From: Rhodospirillaceae bacterium
GTDB lineage: Bacteria; Pseudomonadota; Alphaproteobacteria; Bin65
DNA: 64,000 bases
Direction: 5' to 3'
Assembly (NCBI GenBank): GCA_009840595.1
Contig: VXNK01000080.1
Location: forward strand, 1 to 64,000
The notes beneath the pieces were generated by a model. The model made no database searches, was not told the DNA's origin, and saw only the letters and a program-made list of their open reading frames with translations. A program made the position numbers and the translations under genes. Every line of letters begins with the position of its first letter. Position 1 is the first letter of the stretch. Positions 1,495 to 15,166 of the stretch are shown here, piece after piece.

Positions 1495-1902
1495 TTGACC
1501 GTTGTTGTAGGACATGGCGTTGACTTGGTGAGCGTCGCCGAGATGCAGCGCTGGATCGAGGATCCGCGCGACCCGTTGATTCCACGCTGCTTTGTACAGG
1601 CGGAACTGGATGAGGTCGGCGACGGGGTCAATCGGATTGAGCGGCTGGCGGGACGGTTCGCCGCCAAAGAGGCAGTGCTCAAGGCAATCGGCATTGGCTT
1701 CGGTGCAGGCGTTGCCTTCACCGACGTAATGATATGCCGGTCGCCGGGCGCGGTGCCGGAAGTACGACTTTCGGGCGGCGCGGCGAAGGCCGCCACAGCG
1801 CTGGGGGTGACCGCTTGGAAACTCAGCATCAGTCACGCGGGCGGCATGGCGATGGCGAGCGCTCTTGCGTTGAGCACGAAGAATCACACAGGTGGCTCCT
1901 GA
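1495..1902 (+). CDS. Holo-ACP synthase (4'-phosphopantetheinyl transferase, AcpS type)
   Basis: A 135-residue AcpS-family enzyme, which transfers 4'-phosphopantetheine from CoA to a serine of a carrier protein. The N-terminal GHGVDLVSV motif carries the Mg-binding Asp10, and RFAAKEAVLKA (54-64) carries the second metal/CoA motif with Glu59; a conserved ISHA motif follows near the C-terminus. The start is TTG, with AAGGAAAG about 10 nt upstream. The gene converges on the MazG gene and overlaps it by 19 nt. The window also encodes a small carrier-like protein at 6066-6371 with a DS motif, so this is probably a dedicated activating enzyme for it and not the housekeeping acpS, which usually sits elsewhere in alphaproteobacteria. 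Family assignment is secure; the partner is inferred. Confidence 0.85.
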   Translation: MTVVVGHGVDLVSVAEMQRWIEDPRDPLIPRCFVQAELDEVGDGVNRIERLAGRFAAKEAVLKAIGIGFGAGVAFTDVMICRSPGAVPEVRLSGGAAKAATALGVTAWKLSISHAGGMAMASALALSTKNHTGGS

Positions 1903-2786
1903 TTGGCGGGCGGACCGAGAAAGGCAATGCTCCGTAGGTCCAGATCGACAGCGATACGTCCGCCACGCGAGGCCAGTACAGCGCGCCACACCTCGAACCC
2001 CTGGAGAATGGCTTGCTCCCATTCACCGGTCGTGCATTGGCAAACTTCCAAATGGGACGTCATGTCCTTGATTGTGCGCAGCAACTGAAAATCGAGAACA
2101 GCCACGCCGTCGAGGAAACGATGGCGACGGGCATAGTCGAACGCGAGTGCGACGACACCCTCTTCAATAACGGCCGCTCGTCCGCCGTCTTCGACTTCGT
2201 CGACCAATGGTCGGCTCTTGCGCTTACGACGGAGCAACCCCCGAGTAATCGGCGACCAGCCAAGCACGGCGGCGTAGGCGAAGTGAAAAACGTCATGAAA
2301 TCGATAGCCATCGGGGTCGTAGGCGTTGTCGGTAAGCTGCGAGCCGAATGGCTCGCCATCGATCAGTATCTGAACGTGCTGGCTCTCCCCCTCCCTCTCC
2401 TCCGCGTCGACTAGCTCGACTTCAAACTGTCGCGGAAGGCGCTCCCCTTCGGGAAGCTCGGCGTCGAAGACAAGGGGCTCGGCGCGTTCGCTCGTCCAGC
2501 GATGCCTGACCTTGACCAAATTGGCACCAGCGATTTCGGAGAGCGAGAGATCGAATTTGCTGGCAACGTTCGCGATATACCAAAGAAGGTCACCCAGTTC
2601 CTCGGACACGCGTTCCTTGAATAAACGATGCGCCTCGCCGTCGCGCAGGTGTTTCTTGTACTCGCTGAGCAGCTGCCCCGTCTCGCCTGCGAGGCCGAGC
2701 ATGGGGACGATCAGCGAGGCTGCATCGTCGTCTTCTGGCACGCGATCGGTGCGCAGCGCTTCCTGCTGATAGCTGTTGAAATCCAT
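1884..2786 (-). CDS. MazG-like nucleotide pyrophosphohydrolase with C-terminal extension
   Basis: A 300-residue protein. The first ~100 residues form a MazG/NTP-PPase all-alpha domain, with AGETGQLLSE (33-42) and SEELGDLLW (61-69) supplying the acidic residues (Glu35, Glu62/63, Asp66) that bind Mg-nucleotide. Members hydrolyse (d)NTPs to (d)NMP and pyrophosphate; phage and modification-associated members clear a canonical dNTP from the pool. The ~200-residue C-terminal part, containing a DVFHFAYAAVLGW segment, is not recognised. An ORF extends upstream to 2861 but overlaps the preceding gene; the ATG at 2786 has AAGGAG just upstream and is preferred. Last gene of the leftward operon, 17 nt after the base-hypermodification-like gene. 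Confidence 0.85.
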   Translation of the reverse strand: MDFNSYQQEALRTDRVPEDDDAASLIVPMLGLAGETGQLLSEYKKHLRDGEAHRLFKERVSEELGDLLWYIANVASKFDLSLSEIAGANLVKVRHRWTSERAEPLVFDAELPEGERLPRQFEVELVDAEEREGESQHVQILIDGEPFGSQLTDNAYDPDGYRFHDVFHFAYAAVLGWSPITRGLLRRKRKSRPLVDEVEDGGRAAVIEEGVVALAFDYARRHRFLDGVAVLDFQLLRTIKDMTSHLEVCQCTTGEWEQAILQGFEVWRAVLASRGGRIAVDLDLRSIAFLGPPANQEPPV

Positions 2787-2803
2787 GCGTGGCTCCTTCG
2801 GCC

Positions 2804-3958
2804 TCAAGGGGCGGCAACGGGTTGAGGCTGGTCGACGCGGATCTTGTCGTTGAGCTTCCACTTGGGAGGGTAGAAGAACTCGATGGGTTCCGATATGGGA
2901 ACGAACTTCTGTTTGATGCGGACGCGGCCGGTTTTCCCGGCGACCTGCGGATGCACGACGCGCGCGTATTTGTCGACCTCACAAAACAGGTTCTGACAGT
3001 CGATCAACTGGAGGCGGCGCCCCCAGAGTGATTGGAAATGGAGGCCGAGGCGTTCGAACTCTCGTTCTTGCAGGTCGGCCATGAGCCGGATGAGCTCGGG
3101 CTCGTTCAGACCTCCCGAATCTACGAAGCATTTGCGCAGACCATCGCGTGCCCCTGGACCAGGTACGACGAAGTCCATCTCGCTAAATTCGGTGAGTTCG
3201 CTGTAGTTGATGTCGGTGATGAATTGATAGGCGAGGAAGTCCCCGATAGTTGGATAGGCACGCAGTTTCTCGAATCCCTCTTGCATCGTGCGGGTCTGGG
3301 CCAACCGCTCGGCAAGCCGATCCGCCATCATTCGTTCGAGCAGTAACAGATGGTTCTGATGCTTTGCCGATCGTCCGAAAGCATGGCGGCCAGGAGGCAT
3401 GATGTAGGCGGCGGAATAAATGCGACGACCAGCTTGCCGCGCCGCCGCGAGCACGGCGTCATAGGCGGCGAAGTGATAGTCGTCGAAAGTGATTGGGCCA
3501 ATCGCGCGTTCAAGGAGCTCCCAAGTCTCTATCTTGTTGAAAATCTTGAATAACATGATGCGAAAAAAGACTTCGGGAGGCGACTTGGGCAGGTCGTCGC
3601 GATAGATGACATGGCGGATGAGATATTGGCTGACCCGGTCGGATGCGCGGTAGGCATTTGTAAATTTGTAGATCGCCAGTACCGGATTTTCCGTCCACGG
3701 CTCATTCTCACCGCGCACGCGGCGGAAGAACATTGCCTGCCGTTCGGCTGCGAAACGCCAATAGCTTTCGTAGACCTCAGATGCTTTGGCCGGCGCCAAG
3801 TGGCGCAGGACAGTCGGCGCAGGTGTCGTCGATAGCACCCCGGGTCGAACCGCTATGGCGAGTTCCATCTGGTGCGCTGGGCGAGGTGCGCTGGAATGAG
3901 CCTTTCGGGGACGGCCGCGCGGTCGTTTCTTCGGGTCTTTGGGCGACTCGGCACTCAA
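2804..3958 (-). CDS. Putative DNA base hypermodification protein (5-hmdU kinase helical domain / aGPT-pyrophosphorylase-like) with AT-hook
   Basis: A 384-residue protein. The segment at 67-120 (YWRFAAERQ, then PWTENPVL, then KFTNAYRASDRVSQYL) has the pattern I associate with the helical domain of phage 5-hydroxymethyl-deoxyuridine DNA kinases and alpha-glutamyl/putrescinyl-thymine pyrophosphorylases, families described in phage thymine hypermodification. No Walker A motif is present, so this is the helical, DNA-acting part without a P-loop kinase. Residues 12-19 form a classic AT-hook (PRGRP core), which supports minor-groove DNA binding. The start is TTG, overlapping the preceding stop as TTGA, with GGGAG 9 nt upstream. 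Followed by the MazG gene. Family assignment rests on remembered motif patterns and would need a profile search. Confidence 0.6.
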   Translation of the reverse strand: MSAESPKDPKKRPRGRPRKAHSSAPRPAHQMELAIAVRPGVLSTTPAPTVLRHLAPAKASEVYESYWRFAAERQAMFFRRVRGENEPWTENPVLAIYKFTNAYRASDRVSQYLIRHVIYRDDLPKSPPEVFFRIMLFKIFNKIETWELLERAIGPITFDDYHFAAYDAVLAAARQAGRRIYSAAYIMPPGRHAFGRSAKHQNHLLLLERMMADRLAERLAQTRTMQEGFEKLRAYPTIGDFLAYQFITDINYSELTEFSEMDFVVPGPGARDGLRKCFVDSGGLNEPELIRLMADLQEREFERLGLHFQSLWGRRLQLIDCQNLFCEVDKYARVVHPQVAGKTGRVRIKQKFVPISEPIEFFYPPKWKLNDKIRVDQPQPVAAP

Positions 3959-4809
3959 AGCGCTGCTCCCGCGGTCGCAGCGGCGACAGGCGCGCGCGGC
4001 GCTGGGGCAGTGGCTTGTGACTCGAGTGTCCGAGCAGCCTTGACCAATTGGGTACGTTTCAGCTCGCGCTTGGAGATTCGCTCAAGCTTGGCGACTCCGA
4101 CCATGACGTTCAGTCGCGCTAGCCGTATGCCCATCTCATGGGCCATGAAGGCGCCGAGCTGGGCCAAGCCGAGATAGTTGCCATAGGCTTTGTCGAATAT
4201 CTGCTGAGTGGCGTAGAACGCGTTGGTGATGAGTCCCTCTGAGGTCGGCTCGAAGCTCACCTGTTGAAGGCAGGGAAAGCCGAGTTGCGCGCTGGTGACA
4301 TGATCGCGGCCAGGATCGAAGGTGGTCGCTTGAAGCATCGATCGGCGAACGCCTTTCCGTGACTTGTACTGGGACAAGATCCACTCCAACTGATTTCCGT
4401 CGCACGGCCCGCGCCCGTACATCATCATGCGTTCGAAATACAGGCCGCGGCTGTTGGCCTTGCGATTCACTGCCTTAAGGCGCGGGAACGTCTTGCGATA
4501 TAGTTCGAACAAGCGGTCTCGGTCGCCACGGGACATCTCCCAGTACCGTTGCGGGAAAATCGTGAACGCAACGTTCTCGACCAAGTATCGGCCATTGCGC
4601 TTGAGCAGCTCATCGAGAGCTTGGCGCACCGCTGAATCTTCGACGGCAGTACCCTCTTGGGCGAAGCCGGTCACGCTCAGGATCAATGGCGCGACCTCCG
4701 TGCCGGCGTTGTCAAGTACCTGGAGGAGCAGGCGCGCCCAAGCGCGCGAAAGGTTGGTGTCGTCGATCAGAAAGGGCGGCGGTGCTACCAAGGACTTGGC
4801 CTTACTCAT
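3955..4809 (-). CDS. Thymidylate-synthase-like protein (possible pyrimidine hydroxymethylase)
   Basis: A 284-residue protein resembling thymidylate synthase over residues ~115-240: an RR pair (155-156) matching the phosphate-binding arginines, GFPC with the nucleophile-position Cys180, and YGNYLGL (209-215) matching the DVFLGLPFN segment. The Asp and Asn that read the uracil ring in ThyA appear as Gly210 and Leu218, so the substrate or chemistry may differ, as in dUMP/dCMP hydroxymethylases. The last ~25 residues are an Ala/Pro-rich tail. The ORF opens at 4893, but the ATG at 4809 has GGAGGAGG upstream and overlaps the preceding stop as ATGAGTAA, so I chose it. Neighbours (MazG, base-hypermodification-like protein) support a nucleotide-modification role. 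Confidence 0.7.
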   Translation of the reverse strand: MSKAKSLVAPPPFLIDDTNLSRAWARLLLQVLDNAGTEVAPLILSVTGFAQEGTAVEDSAVRQALDELLKRNGRYLVENVAFTIFPQRYWEMSRGDRDRLFELYRKTFPRLKAVNRKANSRGLYFERMMMYGRGPCDGNQLEWILSQYKSRKGVRRSMLQATTFDPGRDHVTSAQLGFPCLQQVSFEPTSEGLITNAFYATQQIFDKAYGNYLGLAQLGAFMAHEMGIRLARLNVMVGVAKLERISKRELKRTQLVKAARTLESQATAPAPRAPVAAATAGAAL

Positions 4810-5704
4810 CCGGGTCCTCCTCCAAGTGTCGGTATTGCGCGAGCCCGACATAACCGTACGGTTCATTTCTCTGGACCGGGGCAATGCGCACAAAGACTGC
4901 CCAGTCGCCGGCGGTTGCCTGGAATATCCCGGGCTTCACTGCCCGGAACAGGCGTCCGGACGGGAGGTCGCGCTGAAATGCGAATTGGCCGCCAGCCACC
5001 TTTGCGCCGGGAGGCAGCAGAAGCAGCGTATTGACCTCTGCGTCCAAGGTGGGCGCGGTACGATGACGATCGGCGACGATCAGCGGCTCGGGCGTCAACG
5101 CTCCCAGAATTTCCATGCGCAGAGACTTGGGCGTTACGCGCCTGAGCGCGGCGGTGCGGCCACGCGACAGCATCTGAACGCCTGCCGAGAGGTGGGTTAG
5201 AAGCGTCGCGTAGCCAACGCCGAATTCGCAGGCGACCGTGAAGACCTGCGCCGGCGTGGCAGTTTCGGGTGTCCAACCCCGGACCGCAAAGGCGCGGCGC
5301 AGGCCAATGATCGGCATGAGGATGAAGCCAGCGAAAGTATCGGCCAGGAACTCCTTCGGGTCTTCCCAGGGTTGCGCCTTGGCATCTTCGCGCAGTTCGT
5401 CGATCGAGGAGCCATGGCCGAAAATGTGATGGCCAAGTTCATGCGCACAATTATAGGCACGCCGCGGCAGCGGTCGTCGCGCTGAAAGATGAATGCGCGG
5501 AGGTATACCGCGCTGATACATCCCTTCCATGTTGATGTTATTGAAACGCACCACGATGCCCAATGTTTCGCAAAGGCCGTATATGCAGATCGGCCCCGAT
5601 TGGTCGAGATTGGCCTTCGCCCGCGTGGCCGTAGCGGCCTGCATGGCTTGAGTCGCGAGCACGCGGCGGTCGAAACCGGGTTTGATGATGCGCATTTCGC
5701 TCAT
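4802..5704 (-). CDS. ImmA/IrrE-family metallo-endopeptidase
   Basis: A 300-residue protein whose N-terminal half is an ImmA/IrrE-type zinc peptidase: NCAHELGHHIFGHG carries the HExxH metal site, and the glutamate of EFLADTFAGFILMP is the probable third ligand. Characterised members (ImmA, IrrE/PprI) cleave a cognate XRE-type repressor after a DNA-damage or element-induction signal. The C-terminal ~130 residues are a beta-rich domain of unknown function. The ATG overlaps the stop of the adjacent XRE gene (TGATG), the usual repressor-protease pair. Inference: this protein derepresses the cassette on a stress or infection cue. Confidence 0.88.
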   Translation of the reverse strand: MSEMRIIKPGFDRRVLATQAMQAATATRAKANLDQSGPICIYGLCETLGIVVRFNNINMEGMYQRGIPPRIHLSARRPLPRRAYNCAHELGHHIFGHGSSIDELREDAKAQPWEDPKEFLADTFAGFILMPIIGLRRAFAVRGWTPETATPAQVFTVACEFGVGYATLLTHLSAGVQMLSRGRTAALRRVTPKSLRMEILGALTPEPLIVADRHRTAPTLDAEVNTLLLLPPGAKVAGGQFAFQRDLPSGRLFRAVKPGIFQATAGDWAVFVRIAPVQRNEPYGYVGLAQYRHLEEDPDE

Positions 5705-6069
5705 CAGCGATCGCCTCCAGTCGCGGTGGAATCGCTGCGCAAGGCGGCCAACAGCCTGAGCAAGTGTTCCAGGTCGTCGGGCTTGAGTTTGACAAGTTCA
5801 CGCGCGGCGAGCTCAAGCCGGGGGTCTTGAGCGTCGAGTGTCTCGGGCGCCTCGCCGAGCAGCCAGGCCACGCTGACATCATATATCTCCGCAAGCAGGG
5901 CGAGCTCGTCGGCCGAAACGCGGCGTTTGCCCGCCTCCATTTCGGTGACGGAAGGGCGATGAAGGCCGAGCATCCTGGCAACATGGCCCTGCGACAGACC
6001 AGCGAGCTTGCGCGCCTCTTTCAGGCGCTCGGCAATCTCTGTGCGCTTGGCGGAGTCCAGCTTAGTCAT
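5704..6069 (-). CDS. XRE-family helix-turn-helix transcriptional regulator
   Basis: A 121-residue protein. Residues ~10-70 form an XRE/Cro-type HTH: GLSQGHVARMLGLHRPSVTE is helix 2, the turn and the recognition helix, followed by MEAGKRRVSADELALLAEIY and the typical VSVAWLLGE ending. The C-terminal ~40 residues are acidic and leucine-rich, perhaps a dimerisation or protease-recognition tail. It overlaps the upstream carrier gene as ATGA and the downstream ImmA/IrrE gene by 1 nt, implying translational coupling. It probably represses its own operon through the inverted repeat at 6395-6413. Confidence 0.9.
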   Translation of the reverse strand: MTKLDSAKRTEIAERLKEARKLAGLSQGHVARMLGLHRPSVTEMEAGKRRVSADELALLAEIYDVSVAWLLGEAPETLDAQDPRLELAARELVKLKPDDLEHLLRLLAALRSDSTATGGDR

Positions 6070-6371
6070 GCCGCAGCGGCTTCCTGCTCGCTGTGTTTCT
6101 TGTGTATGTCGCAGACGAAGATCGCCATTTCATCTATGGAGCGGGGAAGTTTGGTTGTCTCGTTGATGAAGATGTTTACGTCGTTCGGGATCGTCGCGCC
6201 GATCTCGGTCGCGAGGATTGTGGTTGCGGCGGGCCAGACCTTGCTATCGAACCCCGGCAGATCCTCGACTGGTGTTGTAACGCCGGTCAACGGCGGGCAG
6301 TCGAGGCCGCTGTCCGTCTGGATCTGGCTGAGGATGGGGATGAGATTCTCTTTAACTGCGGCGGGATCCAT
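6066..6371 (-). CDS. Small acyl-carrier-protein-like protein
   Basis: A 101-residue protein and first gene of the leftward operon. The pattern resembles an ACP/PCP four-helix carrier: LPGFDSKVWPAATTILATEIG (39-59) places a DS pair (Ser43) at the start of helix II as in the phosphopantetheine-attachment motif (DSL in ACPs, DSK here), followed by IPNDV and a last helix containing SIDEMAIFVCDIHKK. The AcpS-type transferase gene 4 kb away gives independent support that this is a modified carrier. ATG start with AAGGAGG about 8 nt upstream. What group it would carry is unknown. The similarity is remote; profile or structure comparison is needed. Confidence 0.6.
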   Translation of the reverse strand: MDPAAVKENLIPILSQIQTDSGLDCPPLTGVTTPVEDLPGFDSKVWPAATTILATEIGATIPNDVNIFINETTKLPRSIDEMAIFVCDIHKKHSEQEAAAA

Positions 6372-6394: not shown

Positions 6395-6427
6395 AGGTAA
6401 GATATTCTTACCTATTCGTTAAGTCAA
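6395..6427 (-). promoter_or_regulatory. Sigma70-like promoter overlapped by inverted-repeat operator
   Basis: On the minus strand TTGACT (6427-6422), a 17-nt spacer and TATCTT (6404-6399) form a plausible -35/-10 pair 28 nt upstream of the carrier-gene ATG. An inverted repeat with 8-bp arms and a 3-bp centre (AGGTAAGA-tat-TCTTACCT, 6395-6413) covers the -10 and part of the spacer. This is where a repressor would block RNA polymerase, so it is the best candidate site for the XRE protein encoded second in the operon. Confidence 0.6.
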
Positions 6428-7463
6428 GCCGCATTGTTCCTGATCGGCTATGCAGGTAACCGGCCGAGCGATTCGAAAATCGCGGGAGATGCCAGTGTGT
6501 GACGCGACATGTCGCGTCAGGAACTAGATTGATTCTGACGAAAGGGTCATTCACGACGAGCCGCAACCAGCAGTTGAATTCGCCCCCTTCCGACACGAAG
6601 ACGGGGCATGGGCCGGCGCCTCCCGCGCTGCCGTAACCTGCTGCATAAGAACGTCTTTTCCCGCCCCGGCAAGCGCCGCCGCAATCCTGACGAATCAACA
6701 TAAAGCACGGATCTACAGGCGGGACGGGGCCGGTTTCAGCGGAGGGGGCGGATGAGGATTTCGTCAGCAGCCTTGACCGTGCCGTCGGGACCGACGTCAA
6801 GCAGCGAGACCTCAGGAAGGGCCAAACGCAGTCCGGTGCTTGAACGCAACCGCTTCCGCCACGATGACGGGCACTCGCACCCGTTTTTGCGCGCAGGCCG
6901 AGGAATTCCGCGATTCCGCCGAGTTGAGCGAGCCCTTGCCGTCCGAATCGCGGATCCTGACGGAAGCGGCATATTCGTGACTCCCCGTGACAGGGAAGCC
7001 CGTCGTCCAGTCGAGTGCCGACCACAAATTTGCAAGGACTGCGGTTAGCGGGATCAAGGCCGCAAGCGGGGTTTCCGCGTTCTCGTCGGACCGGCGCAGT
7101 CAACGATGCCGGAATGATGATGTTCCGCAGGAGACGCCGGGTCGACCCGATCGAGGCGATGCACGATTGTATGATCCGTAGTCCCAGGCGCGTATCGGCG
7201 CAGGGCAGAAGACGTGTGGCGTCGGGCTGTCGCGGCGCCAGGCTTCCTGGCGCGACCGCCAAGGAGGAACCGGGGCGCTTCTGCGAGCCCTTGGACCGGC
7301 TGGGTCAACTGGCGGGGATGTCGAGAGGACCCAAGCGGTGTGTTACTAGCTTTGCCACGGAAGGTGTCTCGGCGGGAAACGGGGCTGCATTGATGGGGTA
7401 ACCAGGACGAATTTCGGTCAATGAGCCGGCGTGGTCGCGAGATGGAACAGTGAGAAGGGAATT
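6428..7463. other. Region without an intact gene
   Basis: Lies between the cassette promoter and the AAA-ATPase gene. It holds repeat copy A (6567-6710). Minus-strand frames around 6736-7057 show short protein-like stretches broken between frames, possibly a decayed gene, but no family was recognised. Confidence 0.4.
6567..6710 (+). repeat. Diverged direct repeat, copy A
   Basis: About 145 bp beginning CCAGCAGTTGAATTCG and running through a CCTTCCG-CGAAGACGGG-GGGCCGGCG core to CCTGACGAATCAACATAAAG. The same order of blocks recurs in the same orientation at 13763-13910 with many substitutions. The paired copies bracket the ATPase, HEPN-like and zinc-ribbon genes. No transposase gene was found with either copy; it may be the remnant end of a mobile element. 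Confidence 0.6.
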
Positions 7464-10073
7464 ATGGCGGAGAAACGGGAATCAGGGGCGCAGAACCCGC
7501 CGGCCACGATTTGGAGTCAACTCGATGACTGGGCGCACGAGTTCAAGCCGTGGCAGCGGTTTGTGCTCGCCAACGCCGTCCGTATCGGGCGCCTCACGGA
7601 CGAACAAATCGACCGCGCATACCAGGTGTTTCTGCAGGATCACGGCCTAGCCGAAGCGTCCGATCCCCCGATCGAGGTGCTGTCGGCGATCTCTGGCCGG
7701 CCGACCGAGGCCGTTCCCATGCCGATCTGGCTGCGGCGAGTCGGTGACCTCCGCGCCGTAAACGCGTTGCCCGCGGGCGGCGAGCTGACCTTTTCGCCGG
7801 CCCTCACAGTTGTCTATGGCGGAAATGGCGTCGGCAAGAGCGGCTACACGCGGATTCTGTCCAACGTCTGCTTCAGCCGCGCGCAACACCCCATCCTTCC
7901 GAACGTGTATGAAGACGATGCACCGGGAGAGCCTGCCGCCAAGATTGTCGTAACAGACGGGACCCAACGGGAGACGGTTTTCGAGTTTGACGGCTCCACC
8001 GAGTATTCGGAACTCAGGCGGATCGCCGTTTTCGATACGGCTGTTGCCCGCACGCATTTGGTGGAGCAGAGTCCTCTCGGTTTCAAGCCGGCCGGGTTCG
8101 ACGTGTTTCCTGAGATGGCCCGGGTCTACACGGAACTCGGTAATCGCCTTGCTGCGGAGATAGAGCGACGGGACCGGGAAAACACCCTGATACATAGCTT
8201 TGTGGCGCCGGAGAGCTCTGTTTCAAAATTCGTGGCCGGACTGGATGCCGAGACGGATCTCGCAGAACTGCGCCTGTTGGCTGTGTTTGGAGAAACAGAG
8301 GCGGCGAGACTGGAAGAGGTCCAGCGCCAGATCAAGGACCTACAATCCAAATCGGTTGCAGAGACGGTCAAGCAACTACAAGAGGCTAAGCGGGATGTCG
8401 TCGGGCTGCAAAAGCATCTGCTTGAGAGCAGCGACCTTCTGACAGAAGACAGGCGCGGGGTCTATCGGACCCAGCTTGCAACGTTTCGTGAAAAGGCTCG
8501 TGTGATGGCGGCAGAAGGCGCGGGCGCTTTCGGTCGGGATATCTTCAAGGCGACCGGGACAACGGAATGGGAGCAATTTCTCGCGGCCGCGAGCGCATTG
8601 GCACGACAGGAACGCGAGGATTATCCGCAGGACGACGATCATTGCCTGTTGTGCCACAGACCCCTTGATGCCGCCTCTGTGGCTCTAATCAGGCGGTTCT
8701 GGGGGTTCCTGGCCAGTGCGGCGCGCGGCGACGCCGAAAAGGCCGGCGCCCGGCTCGATCGGTCCGTTCGGGATCTGAAGGAACTCCGGCTGGATTTCCT
8801 TTCGGCAAATACAACCGTGCGGGCTCACCTCACGCGGTTGGATCCGGCGCTGTCCAAGCAGGCCGTCGAGGTCGTCGCGGCCATGGACGAGGACAGGTCT
8901 GCAATTATAGCGGTGCTGGAGGCAGGAGATGGCGAGATTCCATCTCCCGGCTTCGAGAGTGTCGCCAGCGAGCTCGCTGATCTTGTTGCGCAAATCGAGG
9001 CAGATATCCGACTTCTCGAAGAAGAGAAGGTCGAAGACGCGATCAAGGCTTTGGAAGCGGAGAGAATCGCGCTTCGCCACCGACAGGTCCTGAATCAAAT
9101 CCTGCCGGAGGCTGAAAGATACGTTTCCGATCAAGGATGGGTACGAAGGGCATCCGGGGAACCGCGGCGTACCCTCAATCCGCTTCCGATCACAAACAAG
9201 GAAAAAGAGCTCTTTGCGAGCATAATTGCGCAGGACTACAAGGAACGATTTTCCGATGAATGCAGGAAATTGAATTGCAGCCTGCCGGTCGAATTCCGAA
9301 CGCAAGGTCAGCGAGGCCAAACGTTGCGCTCGCTCACCATCAAGGGCCGGCATCGGCCGGATGAAATACTGAGCGAAGGGGAGCAGAGAGCGGTGGCGCT
9401 GGCCGATTTTCTGACCGAGGTCTCGCTAAATCCCGCCAATGCCGGCATCGTTCTGGACGATCCTGTGACTTCTCAGGATCATGAACGCAAGGAACGGATC
9501 GCACGCCGGCTGGTTTCCGAAGCCAAGGACCGGCAGGTCATCATCTTCACGCATGACCTGGTGTTCCTGACCATGGTTGCCGGTGCATCGGAAAATCAGA
9601 ATGTGGAATTGTTGACACATTGGATCGAACGAGACGGTCACGGGAATCCCGGTCAAATCTCCCTGGACGACTGCCCGGCCACGACTCCGCAATACCGCAA
9701 CACTCAGAAGGCGAGGAAGACTCTGGCTGAGGCAAAGGAGGCAGCGGGCTCGACGCGCGTGAAACTGGTGCAGCGTGGAATGGGAGAGTTGCGGCGTACC
9801 ATCGAGGAGATTGTCCCGCATCACCTGCTGAAACAGGTCGTGAACCGGTGGACGGATCGGATTATCGTAACCGGCCTCAAGAAGGTGCACTGGGATGAAG
9901 GTCTGATTGCGGACATCATCGCGTCGTATGAAGAATTGTCTGCTTACATAGAAGGGCATAGTCATACGGAAGCGCGCGCCGGTGGGCAGCCGGAGCCCAA
10001 CGATCTCGGCGACATGATCGTCCGGGTGGATGATCTCATTAAGAGAGCACGGGCGGATCGGCCTCGGCAGTAG
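7464..10073 (+). CDS. AAA/ABC-type ATPase with zinc-hook motif (AAA_13-like, putative defence ATPase)
   Basis: An 869-residue SMC/RecF-like ATPase. Walker A is GGNGVGKSGY (119-128). The ABC signature LSEGEQ lies near 635, Walker B GIVLDDP near 660 and an H-loop THD near 696. The region between the ATPase halves is helical and charged (coiled-coil-like) and carries CLLC near 394-397, a CxxC like the zinc hook of Rad50 and RloC. A ~150-residue C-terminal domain follows. The architecture resembles PrrC/RloC-type ATPases linked to phage exclusion, but I cannot confirm an anticodon-nuclease active site. The ORF opens at a GTG (7431); the ATG at 7464 has GAAGG 5 nt upstream and is preferred. It stands alone between repeat copies, consistent with a single-gene defence system. 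Confidence 0.75.
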   Translation: MAEKRESGAQNPPATIWSQLDDWAHEFKPWQRFVLANAVRIGRLTDEQIDRAYQVFLQDHGLAEASDPPIEVLSAISGRPTEAVPMPIWLRRVGDLRAVNALPAGGELTFSPALTVVYGGNGVGKSGYTRILSNVCFSRAQHPILPNVYEDDAPGEPAAKIVVTDGTQRETVFEFDGSTEYSELRRIAVFDTAVARTHLVEQSPLGFKPAGFDVFPEMARVYTELGNRLAAEIERRDRENTLIHSFVAPESSVSKFVAGLDAETDLAELRLLAVFGETEAARLEEVQRQIKDLQSKSVAETVKQLQEAKRDVVGLQKHLLESSDLLTEDRRGVYRTQLATFREKARVMAAEGAGAFGRDIFKATGTTEWEQFLAAASALARQEREDYPQDDDHCLLCHRPLDAASVALIRRFWGFLASAARGDAEKAGARLDRSVRDLKELRLDFLSANTTVRAHLTRLDPALSKQAVEVVAAMDEDRSAIIAVLEAGDGEIPSPGFESVASELADLVAQIEADIRLLEEEKVEDAIKALEAERIALRHRQVLNQILPEAERYVSDQGWVRRASGEPRRTLNPLPITNKEKELFASIIAQDYKERFSDECRKLNCSLPVEFRTQGQRGQTLRSLTIKGRHRPDEILSEGEQRAVALADFLTEVSLNPANAGIVLDDPVTSQDHERKERIARRLVSEAKDRQVIIFTHDLVFLTMVAGASENQNVELLTHWIERDGHGNPGQISLDDCPATTPQYRNTQKARKTLAEAKEAAGSTRVKLVQRGMGELRRTIEEIVPHHLLKQVVNRWTDRIIVTGLKKVHWDEGLIADIIASYEELSAYIEGHSHTEARAGGQPEPNDLGDMIVRVDDLIKRARADRPRQ

Positions 10074-10663: not shown

Positions 10664-11827
10664 ATGCTAATAAGGTACACATTCAAGCTGCGCGATCCTA
10701 TAATGTTCGAAGATTTTTGGCCCATTCCGATTATGGGTGGTCGACTTCGCGCACTAAAGAAGAATAATAGGGTAACTGGTTTCCTGGTCGAATTCGAAAA
10801 GCAAGATCCAAATTTGTCCCCTTCTCTGAATCAAACACCCGAAGCAGAGGTTAAAGCGCACATTGTAGGGCGGGACAAACTACTTCCGTTTGTGAAGTTT
10901 CAAATTGAAGAAGCTTTTTCATTTCTACAATGTTACTTTAATGTCGAAATTATCTCAAATGAAGTAGAAACGGAATACATAGCTGAAACGGAGGAAGAAA
11001 AACGACAAATTCAAGTGATGAGCTTTAAGACAGGGAAAAGCGACATTGATCAAATAGTTCCCTTCGACATTTTTGCCCGCGCTGTCATGGCGGCAGAGAA
11101 GGCTCCAAGCCCAGCGTTTGAGTCAAGCTTTCTACACATGGCTCGCGCGGAATTGCTTCGGGAACGTTATATTGACTCGTTCAGATATTCATTCTTGTTG
11201 ATTGAGTCGGTTTACGGAGGCGGAAAGTTCAAGTCGAGTCAACTGAAACAAGAGCTAAAGGAAAACCCGGATTTTGTCAAAGTTGTTACAGATGCTATAT
11301 CCGATAGAATTAAGCCAAAAAATAGAAAACAGTGCGACACCGAACGTTTGCTGTCTACCAATGCTCAAGTGGAAGCTGTCATAGATCATATCGTGGATAA
11401 GAGAGGACTTTATTTTCACGGCAACGCTAGGCGAAAAAATCCTTGGCGACCCGATCAGCAAGAAGAAGCTGAATCTTTGAGCTTATTGACATTTGCTATG
11501 GCGAATTTAATTGCAGTAGAAGCAGCGAAGCCCATGTTTGATGATGCGTTGGTAGAGCGGTACAACAAAGCGGCAAAGGATGCTGGGGCAATCATGAAAA
11601 CGCGAATTCATTTTCGGTTCAAAGATCCGACTGAAAGCTTCGACCGCGAGGGACAGGTAGAAATGAATGTTCCGGGCACTGTGCCTACAGCAAAGCAAGC
11701 AGTTTACCTGGCAAACACATTCCTGCAATATTTCAACAACCAGCTTCCAACCGCTGACTTAGTGTCAGCAACTTGTGTTGATGTCGGAAGCGATGCACAA
11801 CTCTTCACATTTCAGGTTAAGGTTTGA
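10664..11827 (+). CDS. AT-rich hypothetical protein with HEPN-like RxxxxH motif
   Basis: A 387-residue protein whose gene is visibly more AT-rich than anything around it, with frequent AAA/GAA/TTT codons, so recent transfer is likely. The N-terminal ~115 residues are beta-rich. Residues ~150-285 are helical and end in RGLYFHGN (about 246-253), an R-x4-H motif in the setting typical of HEPN ribonuclease-type domains (helix, ..D-K-R-G-L-Y-F-H-G-N.., then another helix with LLTFAMANLI). HEPN proteins are common RNA-cutting effectors in toxin-antitoxin and abortive-infection systems; activity here is inference. No partner gene is adjacent. The ATG is preceded by AAAGGATGAAAGAAG, a usable ribosome site. 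Confidence 0.6.
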   Translation: MLIRYTFKLRDPIMFEDFWPIPIMGGRLRALKKNNRVTGFLVEFEKQDPNLSPSLNQTPEAEVKAHIVGRDKLLPFVKFQIEEAFSFLQCYFNVEIISNEVETEYIAETEEEKRQIQVMSFKTGKSDIDQIVPFDIFARAVMAAEKAPSPAFESSFLHMARAELLRERYIDSFRYSFLLIESVYGGGKFKSSQLKQELKENPDFVKVVTDAISDRIKPKNRKQCDTERLLSTNAQVEAVIDHIVDKRGLYFHGNARRKNPWRPDQQEEAESLSLLTFAMANLIAVEAAKPMFDDALVERYNKAAKDAGAIMKTRIHFRFKDPTESFDREGQVEMNVPGTVPTAKQAVYLANTFLQYFNNQLPTADLVSATCVDVGSDAQLFTFQVKV

Positions 11828-12320
11828 CGTGCGACGTGCGGTTGTCTAGCGCCCGCCGACGGTGTCGGTTTAGGATTCGGCAGAATTCGTGATTGGCGAT
11901 AGCGATGTGAATCGAAAGCGCGAAGGCAAGGGTGCATGGCGAAGTGGTAGAGAACGGCGGCGCGGGAAACTATCGGAAAGGTTTGACAAAGTCCGGATAG
12001 CACCAAAGTGCCAGCAAGAGGACCGGAAGAGCCGGTCGAGGCACTCGCTCCTGCAAGGCCCCAGCGGGTTCGTCAGACCGAGGCGGCGCTCGGCGCGCGT
12101 TTCACAGTATGTTTGGTTTCGACCCTTCCGTCGTAGACATGCGGCGAACGCGATAGCGTGTGCTTTGAGCTAGAGAGTACCACGGACTCCTGGCCAAGCG
12201 GCGACCGCTTCCGCATCGGCTTTGTCCATGGTTCGGTTGGGAAGGAATATCGTCGATACGGGGATTTGCGATAATTTGATTTGCCGGTCAGCGCGGGCGG
12301 CCCAATCTTATTGCTGCCTC
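11828..12320. other. Intergenic region without recognised gene
   Basis: About 490 bp between two convergent genes. I see no supported gene, RNA or repeat here. Confidence 0.4.
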
Positions 12321-13613
12321 TCAACGGTCATAGGCTTCTGCCATTCTTTTCGCCTCTGTCTGGTTCGGCTCGAGTGCCCGTAACTGGCACTTCTGCCAGG
12401 AGTCATAGATGTACTCACAGTGTTGCCTGTTTTCCTGCTGTACGCAGTCGGGCCACATGCAAATCTCTTTATTGTCGGAATCTACCCTGATGGGTGTGCA
12501 CAACACGGTTCCCTCCGGACCTCCGAATAACCTTATCCAGTAAACGACGTTGGGGTGGTGATACAGGAAGACCTTATGGTCCGTCAGCAGCTTCAAGATC
12601 CACATAAGCCATTGGGGAATGGACTCCATGTAGTGCCTGAGGTCAATTCCGGTTCCGAGAGGATTCTCCGCGTGGATGATCTTGTTCAATCGATCATAGA
12701 CAGTGACGAGCCTGTCTTCCGTCAGGAAGTCTCCAACTTTCTCCTTGGGCTCGGGGTAGTATTTGGCGTGTATTGCTCTCAAGTCTTTCATGATCTTTTT
12801 GATGTTCCAGGCCTTCCGGAGCTCGTCCTGAGACTTTCTCCAAGCGTCCTTGTTGGAAACCAAGGATCCGAAAATAATCAATTCCAGGACCATGCGGAGC
12901 TGAAGGCAAACCGACTCCACCCGGGTTTGGTTGATTATTCCGGGCATCGCCAAAAGCCGTTGGATGGCTTCGATCTTGAGCTTTATCTCCTCCATGAGGT
13001 CGGAATACTGCTGGATGTCGAGTTCTTCTGCCTGTTTCAACTGCCATCCGCAGTTTGTGCAGACGATGTTCCATCCCCATCCGACCGGGTCGGTTCCCTG
13101 GAGCTGGAGCATGTCGTCGCCGCAGTCGGGACACACCTCGTACGTATTTCCGTCTATTCCCTTGACCGGTTCGCTGGATCCGAAGCCCAGGCTTGTGACC
13201 ATGTCGCCGAATTTCGGTATTTCCCCGCACTCAGGACACGGCCTGGTGGGCTTGATGCCGTACATCATGTAGTCGAGGGCAGCATCCTGATGTCCACGTG
13301 GGCATTCCCCGTGGGCCTCTATCTGTACGAATTCCGCGAAGAGTGACGATGCCTCCGCATGGGTGCGCATCCCCAGGCACCGGTTAATGTTTTCGATGCT
13401 TTCATCGGTCAGTCGGAACTTTCGGTTAACGCCGGCTTTCTCCCACGCACCCAGGTTGATCACGTCCCCGGCTCGGTACCTTTCCGTGCCCCTGTTTGCC
13501 AAGTGCCAGCAGACCAGGCCGTAGCTATCGGGGTCTTCGGTTTTCAGGAGCTGCTCGAGGACTTCGACCTTCCGAAATCTCCATCTTTTCTTTGGCTTTT
13601 TCTGCTTGGTCAT
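12321..13613 (-). CDS. Zinc-ribbon hypothetical protein with HEPN-like C-terminal segment
   Basis: A 430-residue protein of unknown function. The start is basic (TKQKKPKKRWRFRK). Zinc-binding pairs follow at CPRGH (104-108), CPECG (126-130), CPDCG (161-165) and CTNCG (185-189), arranged as two zinc ribbons. A helical second half includes RLNKIIH (308-314), an R-x5-H motif reminiscent of HEPN proteins, followed by AENPLG. Base composition is more AT-rich than the housekeeping genes. It sits inside the repeat-bracketed block with the ATPase, so a defence role is possible but unproven. Confidence 0.55.
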   Translation of the reverse strand: MTKQKKPKKRWRFRKVEVLEQLLKTEDPDSYGLVCWHLANRGTERYRAGDVINLGAWEKAGVNRKFRLTDESIENINRCLGMRTHAEASSLFAEFVQIEAHGECPRGHQDAALDYMMYGIKPTRPCPECGEIPKFGDMVTSLGFGSSEPVKGIDGNTYEVCPDCGDDMLQLQGTDPVGWGWNIVCTNCGWQLKQAEELDIQQYSDLMEEIKLKIEAIQRLLAMPGIINQTRVESVCLQLRMVLELIIFGSLVSNKDAWRKSQDELRKAWNIKKIMKDLRAIHAKYYPEPKEKVGDFLTEDRLVTVYDRLNKIIHAENPLGTGIDLRHYMESIPQWLMWILKLLTDHKVFLYHHPNVVYWIRLFGGPEGTVLCTPIRVDSDNKEICMWPDCVQQENRQHCEYIYDSWQKCQLRALEPNQTEAKRMAEAYDR

Positions 13614-14244
13614 TGCACGCGTGTTCCTGCTGGGTCTTCGCTGAATGTTCCAATTTCAGCATTGATTGGCAAGGCTGCGGAGCCATTGCAGAGAATGACC
13701 GGATTCGCCGTGCCGGGAGCGCTTTCAGAATCCTACGAAAAGGCCATGCGAGCCCAGCCGTGCCCAGCAGTTGAAATTCACCCCTTCCGGCATGAAGACC
13801 GGGTACGGGCCGGCGGTTTACGCACCACCATAACACACGGAAAACGCGCGTCTTTTCGCGCCTCGGCCAGAAGCGCCGCGATCCTGACGAACTAAAATAA
13901 AACACGACACGGGACATGCTATCAGAGGATGTGCCAGTTGACGCTGCAATGCGGCAGTCCTGTGCCCGAAGGGCAGACCGAATCTCCTCCGGTGCGGTGC
14001 GGTTCGGTCTTTGCGCCGACGGGGTTGCTGACCAACCCCCTGACTCACAACCGGCGCGTCCCGCCGCATTACGTCTCGGGGCGATCGTTGGGCAGGCGCC
14101 CCGCGGCGTCGACGGCTTTCCCGATCGCTCGTCACCGAGACGTGCCTCGCGGGACGAGCACGGTCTCCCAGGGCGCCTCTCCGTCGAGGGCCGCATCCCG
14201 TTGCGCGGTTTCGTCCGGCCGGGTGCGGCTCTCGATGGACGCAG
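13614..14244. other. Region without an intact gene
   Basis: Contains repeat copy B (13763-13910). After it, 13916-14244 is GC-rich with no supported reading frame and runs into the integrase remnant. Confidence 0.4.
13763..13910 (+). repeat. Diverged direct repeat, copy B
   Basis: About 148 bp beginning CCCAGCAGTTGAAATTCA, matching copy A (6567-6710) block by block in the same orientation: CCTTCCG, GAAGACCGGG, GGGCCGGCG, CGTCTTTTC, AAGCGCCGC and ATCCTGACGAA are shared or nearly so. Copies lie about 7.2 kb apart and enclose three intact accessory genes. Confidence 0.6.
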
Positions 14245-14280
14245 GTGCCGGCGCGCCCACGGTGTGGCCCTTGCCGGATC

Positions 14281-14545
14281 TCCGACCTGCTCGAAGAGGT
14301 CGGCGGCCACGGCACGCTGCTGGTGCGCCGCTCCAAGACCGACGGAGAGGGCCAGGGCGAGATCGTCTGGGTCGGGCCGGACAGCCTCAGGCTGGTGAAA
14401 CGCTGGCGCAAGCGCGCCGGCGTCGGGGACGGCTACCTGTTCCGCTCCCTCGACAAGGGCGGGACGGTCCTCGGCGCCCTGCCGCCGGGCCAGGTGGCGC
14501 GCATCTTCAAGCGCATGGCGCGCAGGGCCGGCCTGCCGGACCGCC
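14281..14545 (+). pseudogene. Tyrosine recombinase (integrase) fragment
   Basis: The frame encodes SDLLEEVGGHGTLLVRRSKTD followed by VWVGPDSLRLVKRWRKRAG and FKRMARRAGLP. This is the middle of a phage-type tyrosine recombinase catalytic domain: the beta strands after the first catalytic Arg, up to just before the HxxR box. Both ends are missing, including the catalytic R, HxxR and Y, and the frame then joins unrelated sequence. It is a dead remnant marking past integration at the right edge of the accessory island. Confidence 0.65.
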
Positions 14546-15166
14546 GACCCGCAGGACGAGGCGGACTGGATCGAGGAGGACGAGTCGACCGGCCTCGCGG
14601 ACAGGTTCACGACGGACACGTCGACGGCGGCGACCATCACCGGGCTCAGGGCCACGACCGCCTACCGGGTGCAGGTGCGCGCCGTGAGCCACGGCGCGCC
14701 GGGGCCGTGGTCGGAGTCGGCCTCGGTCACCACTGGCGTGGGGACGGCCGCTCCGCCGGTCGGGGCGCTGGTGTCCAACTCCGGGCAGGCAACCAACCAA
14801 AACTCGCATCTTCTAATTGACAGCGTTGCGCAGACGTTCGGCACCGGCGGCAGCGCAGGCGGCTACAAGCTGACCGCGGTGACTGCGACCGTGGCCGGCG
14901 GCACCGGCACGCCGACGTACACCGCGCACATCTTCCTCGCCGACGACGGGATAGCGGCGGAGAAGTCGCACCGCTGGATGGCCGAGCGCATCTGGGGCGA
15001 GGCGAGGGTGGCCTCGGAGTGGAGTTCCGAAAGCTGGATGCGGGCGCAGGTCCGGCGCTGGATCCCGAAGGCCAGGGCGCTGGCAGAGGGCGGCTGGCGC
15101 GACCTCGTGCCCCGCCAGGTGCCGGAGCTGTGGCGGGGAGCCCCGGCCGCGGGACCGGACCCGTAG
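14546..15166 (+). pseudogene. Mosaic gene debris: fibronectin-III fragment fused to unrelated sequence
   Basis: Directly after the integrase remnant the frame reads TTDTSTAATITGL, then AYRVQVRAVS and GPWSESASVTTG, the C-terminal half of a fibronectin type III domain. It is followed by a Gly/Thr-rich surface-protein-like stretch (AQTFGTGGSAGGYKLTAVT). From about 14955 the frame encodes an unrelated basic helical segment (RWMAERIWGEARVASEW) and stops at 15166. I read this as several broken genes joined by deletion, not a functional protein, though an open frame runs from 14669 to 15166. Confidence 0.5.

Follow-up and report, generated by a model that had tools for sequence, protein, structure and literature searches.

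Near the start of the window analysed here (the whole 64,000-nucleotide stretch at positions 1 to 64,000 of contig VXNK01000080.1, from a Rhodospirillaceae bacterium), a run of six leftward genes and a convergent seventh form a mobile cassette that we read as an inducible nucleotide-modification conflict system, most likely directed against phages, in which a carrier protein would serve an enzyme resembling thymidylate synthase (TS). We put the chances of this reading at about even. The run encodes, in order, the carrier, an XRE repressor, an ImmA metallopeptidase, the TS-like protein, a protein of the HMUDK_hel family and a MazG pyrophosphohydrolase, and the convergent gene encodes a phosphopantetheinyl transferase (PPTase) of the AcpS type (Table 1). 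The familiar roles of carrier proteins lie in making lipids, polyketides and peptides. A module that is conserved, spreads horizontally and couples a carrier and its PPTase to a TS relative and DNA-base enzymes, with control of the damage type, would bring new chemistry to the immunity of bacteria or to the biology of nucleotides. The original prediction, made from the letters of the window alone, had listed a defence system among its alternatives, and it is this one that is best supported by the mobility, regulators and defence-type neighbours of the cassette, from which we infer that its role is probably anti-phage.

That these genes belong together is confirmed by their recurrence. When GTDB genomes were scanned with the TS-like protein as query, 13 loci were returned, of which 12 are independent, since L001 and L002 overlap at 100%. 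The taxon labels of these loci are alphaproteobacterial with one exception, and the order carrier-XRE-ImmA-TS-like-HMUDK_hel-MazG is identical in 13/13. AcpS is present in 12 of the 13 and was not found in L006; in L007 the AcpS gene is co-directional and the MazG gene divergent. With L007 set aside, pairwise protein distances correlate among the cassette genes at r 0.75-0.97 (0.95 for carrier and AcpS, 0.94 for carrier and TS-like protein), values in which organismal descent is not separated from co-inheritance. The dN/dS ratios against L001 and L004, where computable, are 0.06-0.39, so that the genes appear to be under purifying selection. Because order, distances and dN/dS agree in this way, the cassette is more than a chance grouping, and the original proposal of one recurring system, for which a survey of co-clustering in other genomes had been suggested, holds across the scan loci, plasmids and rearranged forms. 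In the window itself, ORF coordinates agree with the prediction that four of the five leftward junctions overlap by 1-8 nucleotides: 4 between the carrier and XRE genes, 1 between XRE and ImmA, 8 between ImmA and TS-like and 4 between TS-like and HMUDK_hel, the sole non-overlapping junction being a gap of 17 nucleotides between HMUDK_hel and MazG. The convergent AcpS gene overlaps the end of the MazG gene by 19 nucleotides, and a DCD-like gene lies divergent from AcpS. The closest relatives are homologous to the window at the DNA level as far as 6411-6458 on the right and as far as 83, 771 or ~1505 on the left, varying with whether the DCD-like gene is shared. A decayed prophage module, another of the original alternatives, is rejected on the strength of intact ORFs, the low dN/dS, many syntenic copies, carriage on plasmids and the absence of the TS-like family from phages. 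Beyond what had been predicted, the locus holds the DCD-like membrane protein and an operator palindrome, and the genome a second cassette of another subtype.

The cassette is mobile and patchily distributed, recurring across three bacterial phyla. Searches of plasmids with tblastn, together with annotated regions, show the window's subtype (type A) in Rhizobium, Sinorhizobium, Allocoleopsis and Nostoc, in each case on a conjugative plasmid, the cyanobacterial plasmid copies being without AcpS in the stretches viewed. Streptomyces plasmids carry a rearranged form in which the TS-like protein is ~27% identical and HMUDK_hel and MazG lie on the other strand. A further subtype (type B), from Bradyrhizobium, Sulfitobacter, Sphingobium and Sphingomonas, has the layout carrier-XRE-ImmA(+chagasin)-C1 peptidase-TS-like, facing uracil-DNA glycosylase (UDG) and MazG. 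The TS-like family was found in 6 of 385 alphaproteobacterial genomes and, within that sample, the four other members of the window's genus gave no match; weak TS-family matches in 13 other proteobacterial genomes belong to longer proteins with E above 1e-11 and are taken as other TS paralogues. Cassettes stand near Shedu, SIR2, AbiEii and ABC-three-component genes. The second cassette in the window's own genome (L057, G000:C4:24000-39150) is of type B and comprises carrier, XRE, ImmA-I42, C1 peptidase, TS-like and UDG genes; it is cut off by the contig end.

The 101-residue product of the first gene had been proposed as a carrier, and both model and alignment uphold its prediction as a carrier protein with the fold of an acyl carrier protein (ACP). 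Its AlphaFold2 model has four helices (pLDDT 88.9, pTM 0.80), and in each of the top 50 fold matches in the PDB the matched chain is an ACP, alone or in a complex, with probabilities up to 0.99 and weak E-values of 0.05-1. Aligned, the cassette carriers, some of them only 13-22% identical to the window's, have a single fully invariant position, a serine present in 29/29; in the window it is Ser43, near the N-terminus of helix II, which starts at residue 46 of the model. Sequence comparison found no family match for the window carrier, PF00550 included, and no relative in the PDB up to E 10. Three positional orthologues of actinobacterial type (L039, L045, L080) score above the PF00550 cut-off, and type A carriers match those of the other types weakly in profile comparison (E 0.003, probability 10%). 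The adjoining gene had likewise been correctly recognised as AcpS: its product matches PF01648 and retains the catalytic Asp, Glu and Lys, so that phosphopantetheine loading of Ser43 by this enzyme is strongly indicated from sequence. A likely housekeeping AcpS copy lies on another contig beside a pdxJ-like gene. The pair thus resembles type II ACP and AcpS in fold, in the serine at the start of helix II, in the transferase residues and in the textbook DSL motif of many carrier copies, and differs from them in the FDSKVWP of the window subtype, the want of a PF00550 match and a cassette without nearby fatty-acid or polyketide enzymes.

PPTases appear to have been recruited to the cassette more than once, since AcpS adjoins it in type A, L042, L046 and L061 and a Sfp-type transferase stands in its place in L058; none was found in the stretches viewed of the cyanobacterial and Streptomyces copies. 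These observations bear on the idea of a toxin-antitoxin or plasmid-addiction module under XRE/ImmA control, with the carrier an unloaded regulator or decoy. Plasmid carriage would suit such a module, as would the type B fusion of ImmA and chagasin adjoining a papain-like peptidase, but the carriers, dissimilar as they otherwise are, keep the serine in 29/29 and are linked to PPTases from two distinct families, both of which speak for a carrier that is loaded, and we regard the idea as highly improbable. The carrier also keeps particular company. Wherever the upstream side of a TS-like cassette is present, the carrier gene precedes XRE, and the carrier profile gave no match better than E 0.15 in nine HMUDK_hel loci without a cassette-type TS-like gene (L040, L041, L044, L048, L063, L064, L066, L087 and L088). 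Present in intact TS-like cassettes and unseen in these nine loci, the carrier therefore tracks the TS-like gene and not HMUDK_hel. It was sought and not found in L061, where the contig start cuts the TS-like gene; L062 has broken TS-like pieces only, and L046 has a carrier and no recognised TS-like gene.

The functional roles of the residues of E. coli ThyA are well established. Aligned to that enzyme, all 14 TS-like members keep the equivalents of Cys146 and Asn177, which in the window are Cys180 and Asn211, with a Cys-to-Asn spacing of 31 residues that equals ThyA's. On the folate side, Asp169 has become Q, Y, F or L and Gly173 K or R in 14/14, and the equivalents of His207 and Tyr209 are replaced in all 14; the N-terminal half, the Glu58 position included, aligns unreliably. 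Profile matches are weak (TIGR03283 6e-10, far under that model's cut-off). Because of these changes on the folate side and at His207/Tyr209, we class the protein by its sequence as TS-like only and not as a bona fide ThyA. A role in housekeeping thymidylate synthesis is rejected on the altered active site, the presence of ThyX in the window genome and the lack of any match there to ThyA (PF00303). The family had no match among 50,697 phage genomes; in viral contigs the type A alignment matched nothing, and a broad TS-like alignment matched three, all with XRE/ImmA cassettes. A weak profile match to CMP 5-hydroxymethylase (E 0.18), together with the joint presence of carrier, PPTase and TS-fold enzyme, could point to secondary metabolism and a modified nucleoside natural product. 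The cassette lacks an adenylation, transport or tailoring set, however, and its XRE/ImmA head, MazG, patchy mobile distribution and defence-type neighbours are at odds with such a pathway, which we consider very unlikely.

The enzymes expected to act on bases leave more than one reading. HMUDK_hel gave a low-confidence model (pLDDT 62) whose best PDB fold matches, 2h56 and 8z2n (E 0.09-0.2), are a DNA glycosylase and a 5-phosphomethyldeoxyuridine (5-PmdU) glycinyltransferase, and a fold of the DNA-glycosylase or amino-acid:DNA-transferase kind is weakly suggested. Its relatives occur in 488 phage records, notably of Ackermannviridae and M6-like Yuavirus, and in phage Aergia lie near genes for a P-loop 5-hydroxymethyldeoxyuridine (5-hmdU) kinase (PF18748), an amino-acid:DNA transferase (ADDT, PF18724), a radical SAM protein and a TS. 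The original prediction had likened the cassette to phage thymine hypermodification. The analogy stands at the level of families, in that HMUDK_hel, MazG and TS genes also occur in hypermodifying phages, with a TS homologue or MazG-like gene near HMUDK_hel. It is not supported as a pathway: Pfam searches of the cassette found neither PF18748 nor PF18724, the TS-like family is missing from the phage records and altered on its folate side, and the carrier is new. The same facts weigh on the possibility that modified thymine in the element's own DNA evades host restriction, as in hypermodified phages; the shared families and conjugative plasmids would accord with this, but kinase and transferase are lacking, UDG replaces HMUDK_hel in some copies, the regulators are of the damage type, the TS-like gene is foreign to phages, and relatives of HMUDK_hel sit beside TIR and phospholipase genes. 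We hold it to be unlikely, a shade more so than a scheme akin to thymineless death, also unlikely, in which an imbalance of dTTP and dUTP would place uracil-like bases in DNA for excision by UDG or HMUDK_hel and so fragment replicating phage DNA. That UDG occupies the place of a missing HMUDK_hel in other subtypes, that most copies have MazG_C along with the TS-like gene and that the HMUDK_hel model is weakly glycosylase-like would all agree with abortive infection of this sort, yet it leaves carrier and transferase unexplained, and the DCD-like protein is without its deaminase Glu.

Outside the cassette, HMUDK_hel is found with a ThsB-type TIR and Nmad2 in Gloeothece, Parabacteroides and an alphaproteobacterium, and with a TIR in Rhodococcus. 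A Gloeothece plasmid operon (L041:114-4660) holds a patatin annotated as a phospholipase of CBASS (cyclic-oligonucleotide-based anti-phage signalling), HMUDK_hel, MazG, TIR and Nmad2, with kindred TIR/Nmad2/HMUDK_hel sets in L048 and L063, and a TIR lies near HMUDK_hel in L087 and L088. In Sinorhizobium chiapasense (L087:4435-8086), TIR genes are followed downstream by genes for a TS, an O-methyltransferase and HMUDK_hel, a separate defence-type set of the TS/HMUDK_hel kind.

Control of the cassette resembles known damage-responsive switches. The XRE/ImmA pair that had been placed at the operon head is there, on matches to HTH_3, Peptidase_M78 and PADLOC capH and capP. CapH and CapP respond to single-stranded DNA in CBASS and related operons (PMC13373217, PMC10904395). 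Like CapH/CapP and PprI/DdrO, the cassette has an XRE repressor and an ImmA-type protease at the head of the operon and an operator over its promoter; unlike them, its ImmA has another C-terminal region, a chagasin I42 domain in type B. By analogy, the protease may cleave XRE when activated by single-stranded DNA or damage. No CD-NTase cyclase of CBASS is among the Pfam and PADLOC matches of the cassette. In the type A copies examined, two cyanobacterial plasmids included, a palindrome of the type GGTAAGA..TCTTACC or a close variant precedes the carrier gene by ~40 nucleotides, in L012 and L037 in imperfect form. By chance, 0.02 matches would be expected in the window, where the palindrome overlaps the -10 of a promoter-like TTGACT-17-TATCTT (6427-6399). 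Several type B copies have a different, TGTC..GACA-like palindrome. Homology between the C-terminal region of the window's ImmA and the type B chagasin domain is not supported (hhalign probability 0.6%). In L042 (5312-7014), L043, L049 and L026 the ImmA-chagasin fusion lies directly upstream of the papain-like C1 peptidase, possibly as a two-step protease switch.

The DCD-like gene is found in many cassette copies. Its product shares the fold domain of dCTP deaminase (Dcd) and departs from that enzyme in having Ser or Ala at Glu138 and an added C-terminal hydrophobic helix, both in 9/9 cassette-type copies; a tenth (L085) reads likewise by eye. With the catalytic Glu138 lost, an active dCTP deaminase is rejected, and the protein might, speculatively, be a membrane-anchored nucleotide sensor or effector. 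In L085, from Sinorhizobium fredii, a further annotated thymidylate synthase (3683-4738) stands beside the cassette, adjoining the DCD-like protein, with ABC-three-component genes on the opposite side. L003 has, directly past AcpS at the site of the DCD-like gene in other copies, a gene (11384-13552) whose 722-residue product has a metallophosphoesterase domain and faintly matches TS.

Taken as an inducible nucleotide-modification system, the cassette might work as follows. XRE would rest on the palindrome over the promoter until DNA damage or single-stranded DNA from infection activates ImmA and XRE is cleaved, as in CapH/CapP and PprI/DdrO. AcpS would add phosphopantetheine to Ser43; the TS-like Cys would attack a deoxyuridine nucleotide in a site altered for its one-carbon donor, and the pantetheine arm of the carrier could supply, or itself be, the group joined at C5. 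MazG with MazG_C may reshape the pool of deoxynucleoside triphosphates, and HMUDK_hel, or UDG in other subtypes, may act on the altered base, whether in a nucleotide or in DNA, so that phage replication is harmed or infection aborted. Where present, the catalytically dead, membrane-anchored DCD-like protein might conceivably sense the altered nucleotide. In a more specific version, which we think unlikely, the TS-like enzyme would attach to C5 of a deoxyuridine nucleotide either a group borne by pantetheine or the thiol of pantetheine, and the product would be an immune signal or poison read by the DCD-fold sensor; if this were true, carrier proteins would play a role in nucleotide-based immunity. 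Several points count against the reading as a whole. Phage protection, carrier modification and the TS-like product are all deduced; among the cassette genes there is no recognised enzyme to load a group onto the carrier; the equivalents of the nucleotide contacts R166, H207 and Y209 are altered in the window subtype, so that binding of dUMP is not assured; the HMUDK_hel fold matches are weak; the DCD-like gene is missing from several copies; and defence islands also hold non-defence genes.

The general kind of system is already known, because a 2026 screen in E. coli, DefensePredictor, validated defence systems in which domains of 5-hmdU kinase and TS occur (PMC13092281). According to the main text of that paper, the parts in the E. 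coli systems, which are in part validated, are a 5-hmdU kinase domain, TS, dNMP kinase and NMAD, and predicted sets include MazG / MazG-C / aGPT-Pplase / dUTPase. Proteins of the HMUDK type and the TS fold, MazG_C and nucleotide-binding proteins are common to these systems and the cassette, as defence parts either proposed or tested, and the HMUDK_hel relatives found here beside Nmad2 and TIR are a further likeness. In contrast, that main text names neither a carrier with a dedicated transferase nor an XRE/ImmA head nor the altered TS-like family. No published description of the cassette was found in the open literature searched, outside which two key earlier papers of the Aravind group lie, and its novelty is accordingly provisional.

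Table 1. Features of the cassette and its surroundings, with positions in the window.
Feature	Positions	Strand	Basis and remarks
Predicted carrier protein (ACP fold)	6066..6371	-	AlphaFold2 model, PDB fold matches, invariant Ser; Ser43 the proposed phosphopantetheine site
XRE repressor, CapH-like	5704..6069	-	HTH_3 3e-14; PADLOC capH 5.5e-17
ImmA/IrrE metallopeptidase, CapP-like; C-terminal ~130 residues unclassified	4802..5704	-	Peptidase_M78 PF06114 4e-15; capP 8e-10
TS-like protein; Cys180 and Asn211 retained, folate-side and nucleotide-site residues altered	3955..4809	-	Residue alignment to ThyA; weak TS profile matches
HMUDK_hel-family protein, TTG start	2804..3958	-	PF18723 1.4e-111
MazG pyrophosphohydrolase domain with MazG_C	1884..2786	-	PF18722 2e-76; PF03819 0.001
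AcpS-type PPTase, cassette-specific	1495..1902	+	PF01648 1e-12; NF011254 1e-30; Asp10, Glu59, Lys63 invariant
DCD-like protein, C-terminal membrane helix	648..1433	-	PF22769 2e-18; Glu138 equivalent is Ser
AAA_13/SMC-like ATPase	7431..10073	+	PADLOC candidate family PDC-S06, 2.5e-133
Operator palindrome AGGTAAGAATATCTTACCT, proposed XRE site	6395..6413	none	Overlaps promoter-like -10

Because DNA homology to related loci stops at the right-hand limit given above, the PDC-S06 ATPase gene is a defence-type neighbour outside the conserved cassette. Further along the window, two genes at 10664-11827 and 12321-13613 lie in a stretch of lower GC and gave no significant family match; the second weakly resembles a zinc ribbon. 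GC content jumps at ~14 kb, near an ORF (13900-14820) that reads as an integrase fragment without a Pfam match, and this may possibly be the edge of an acquired island.

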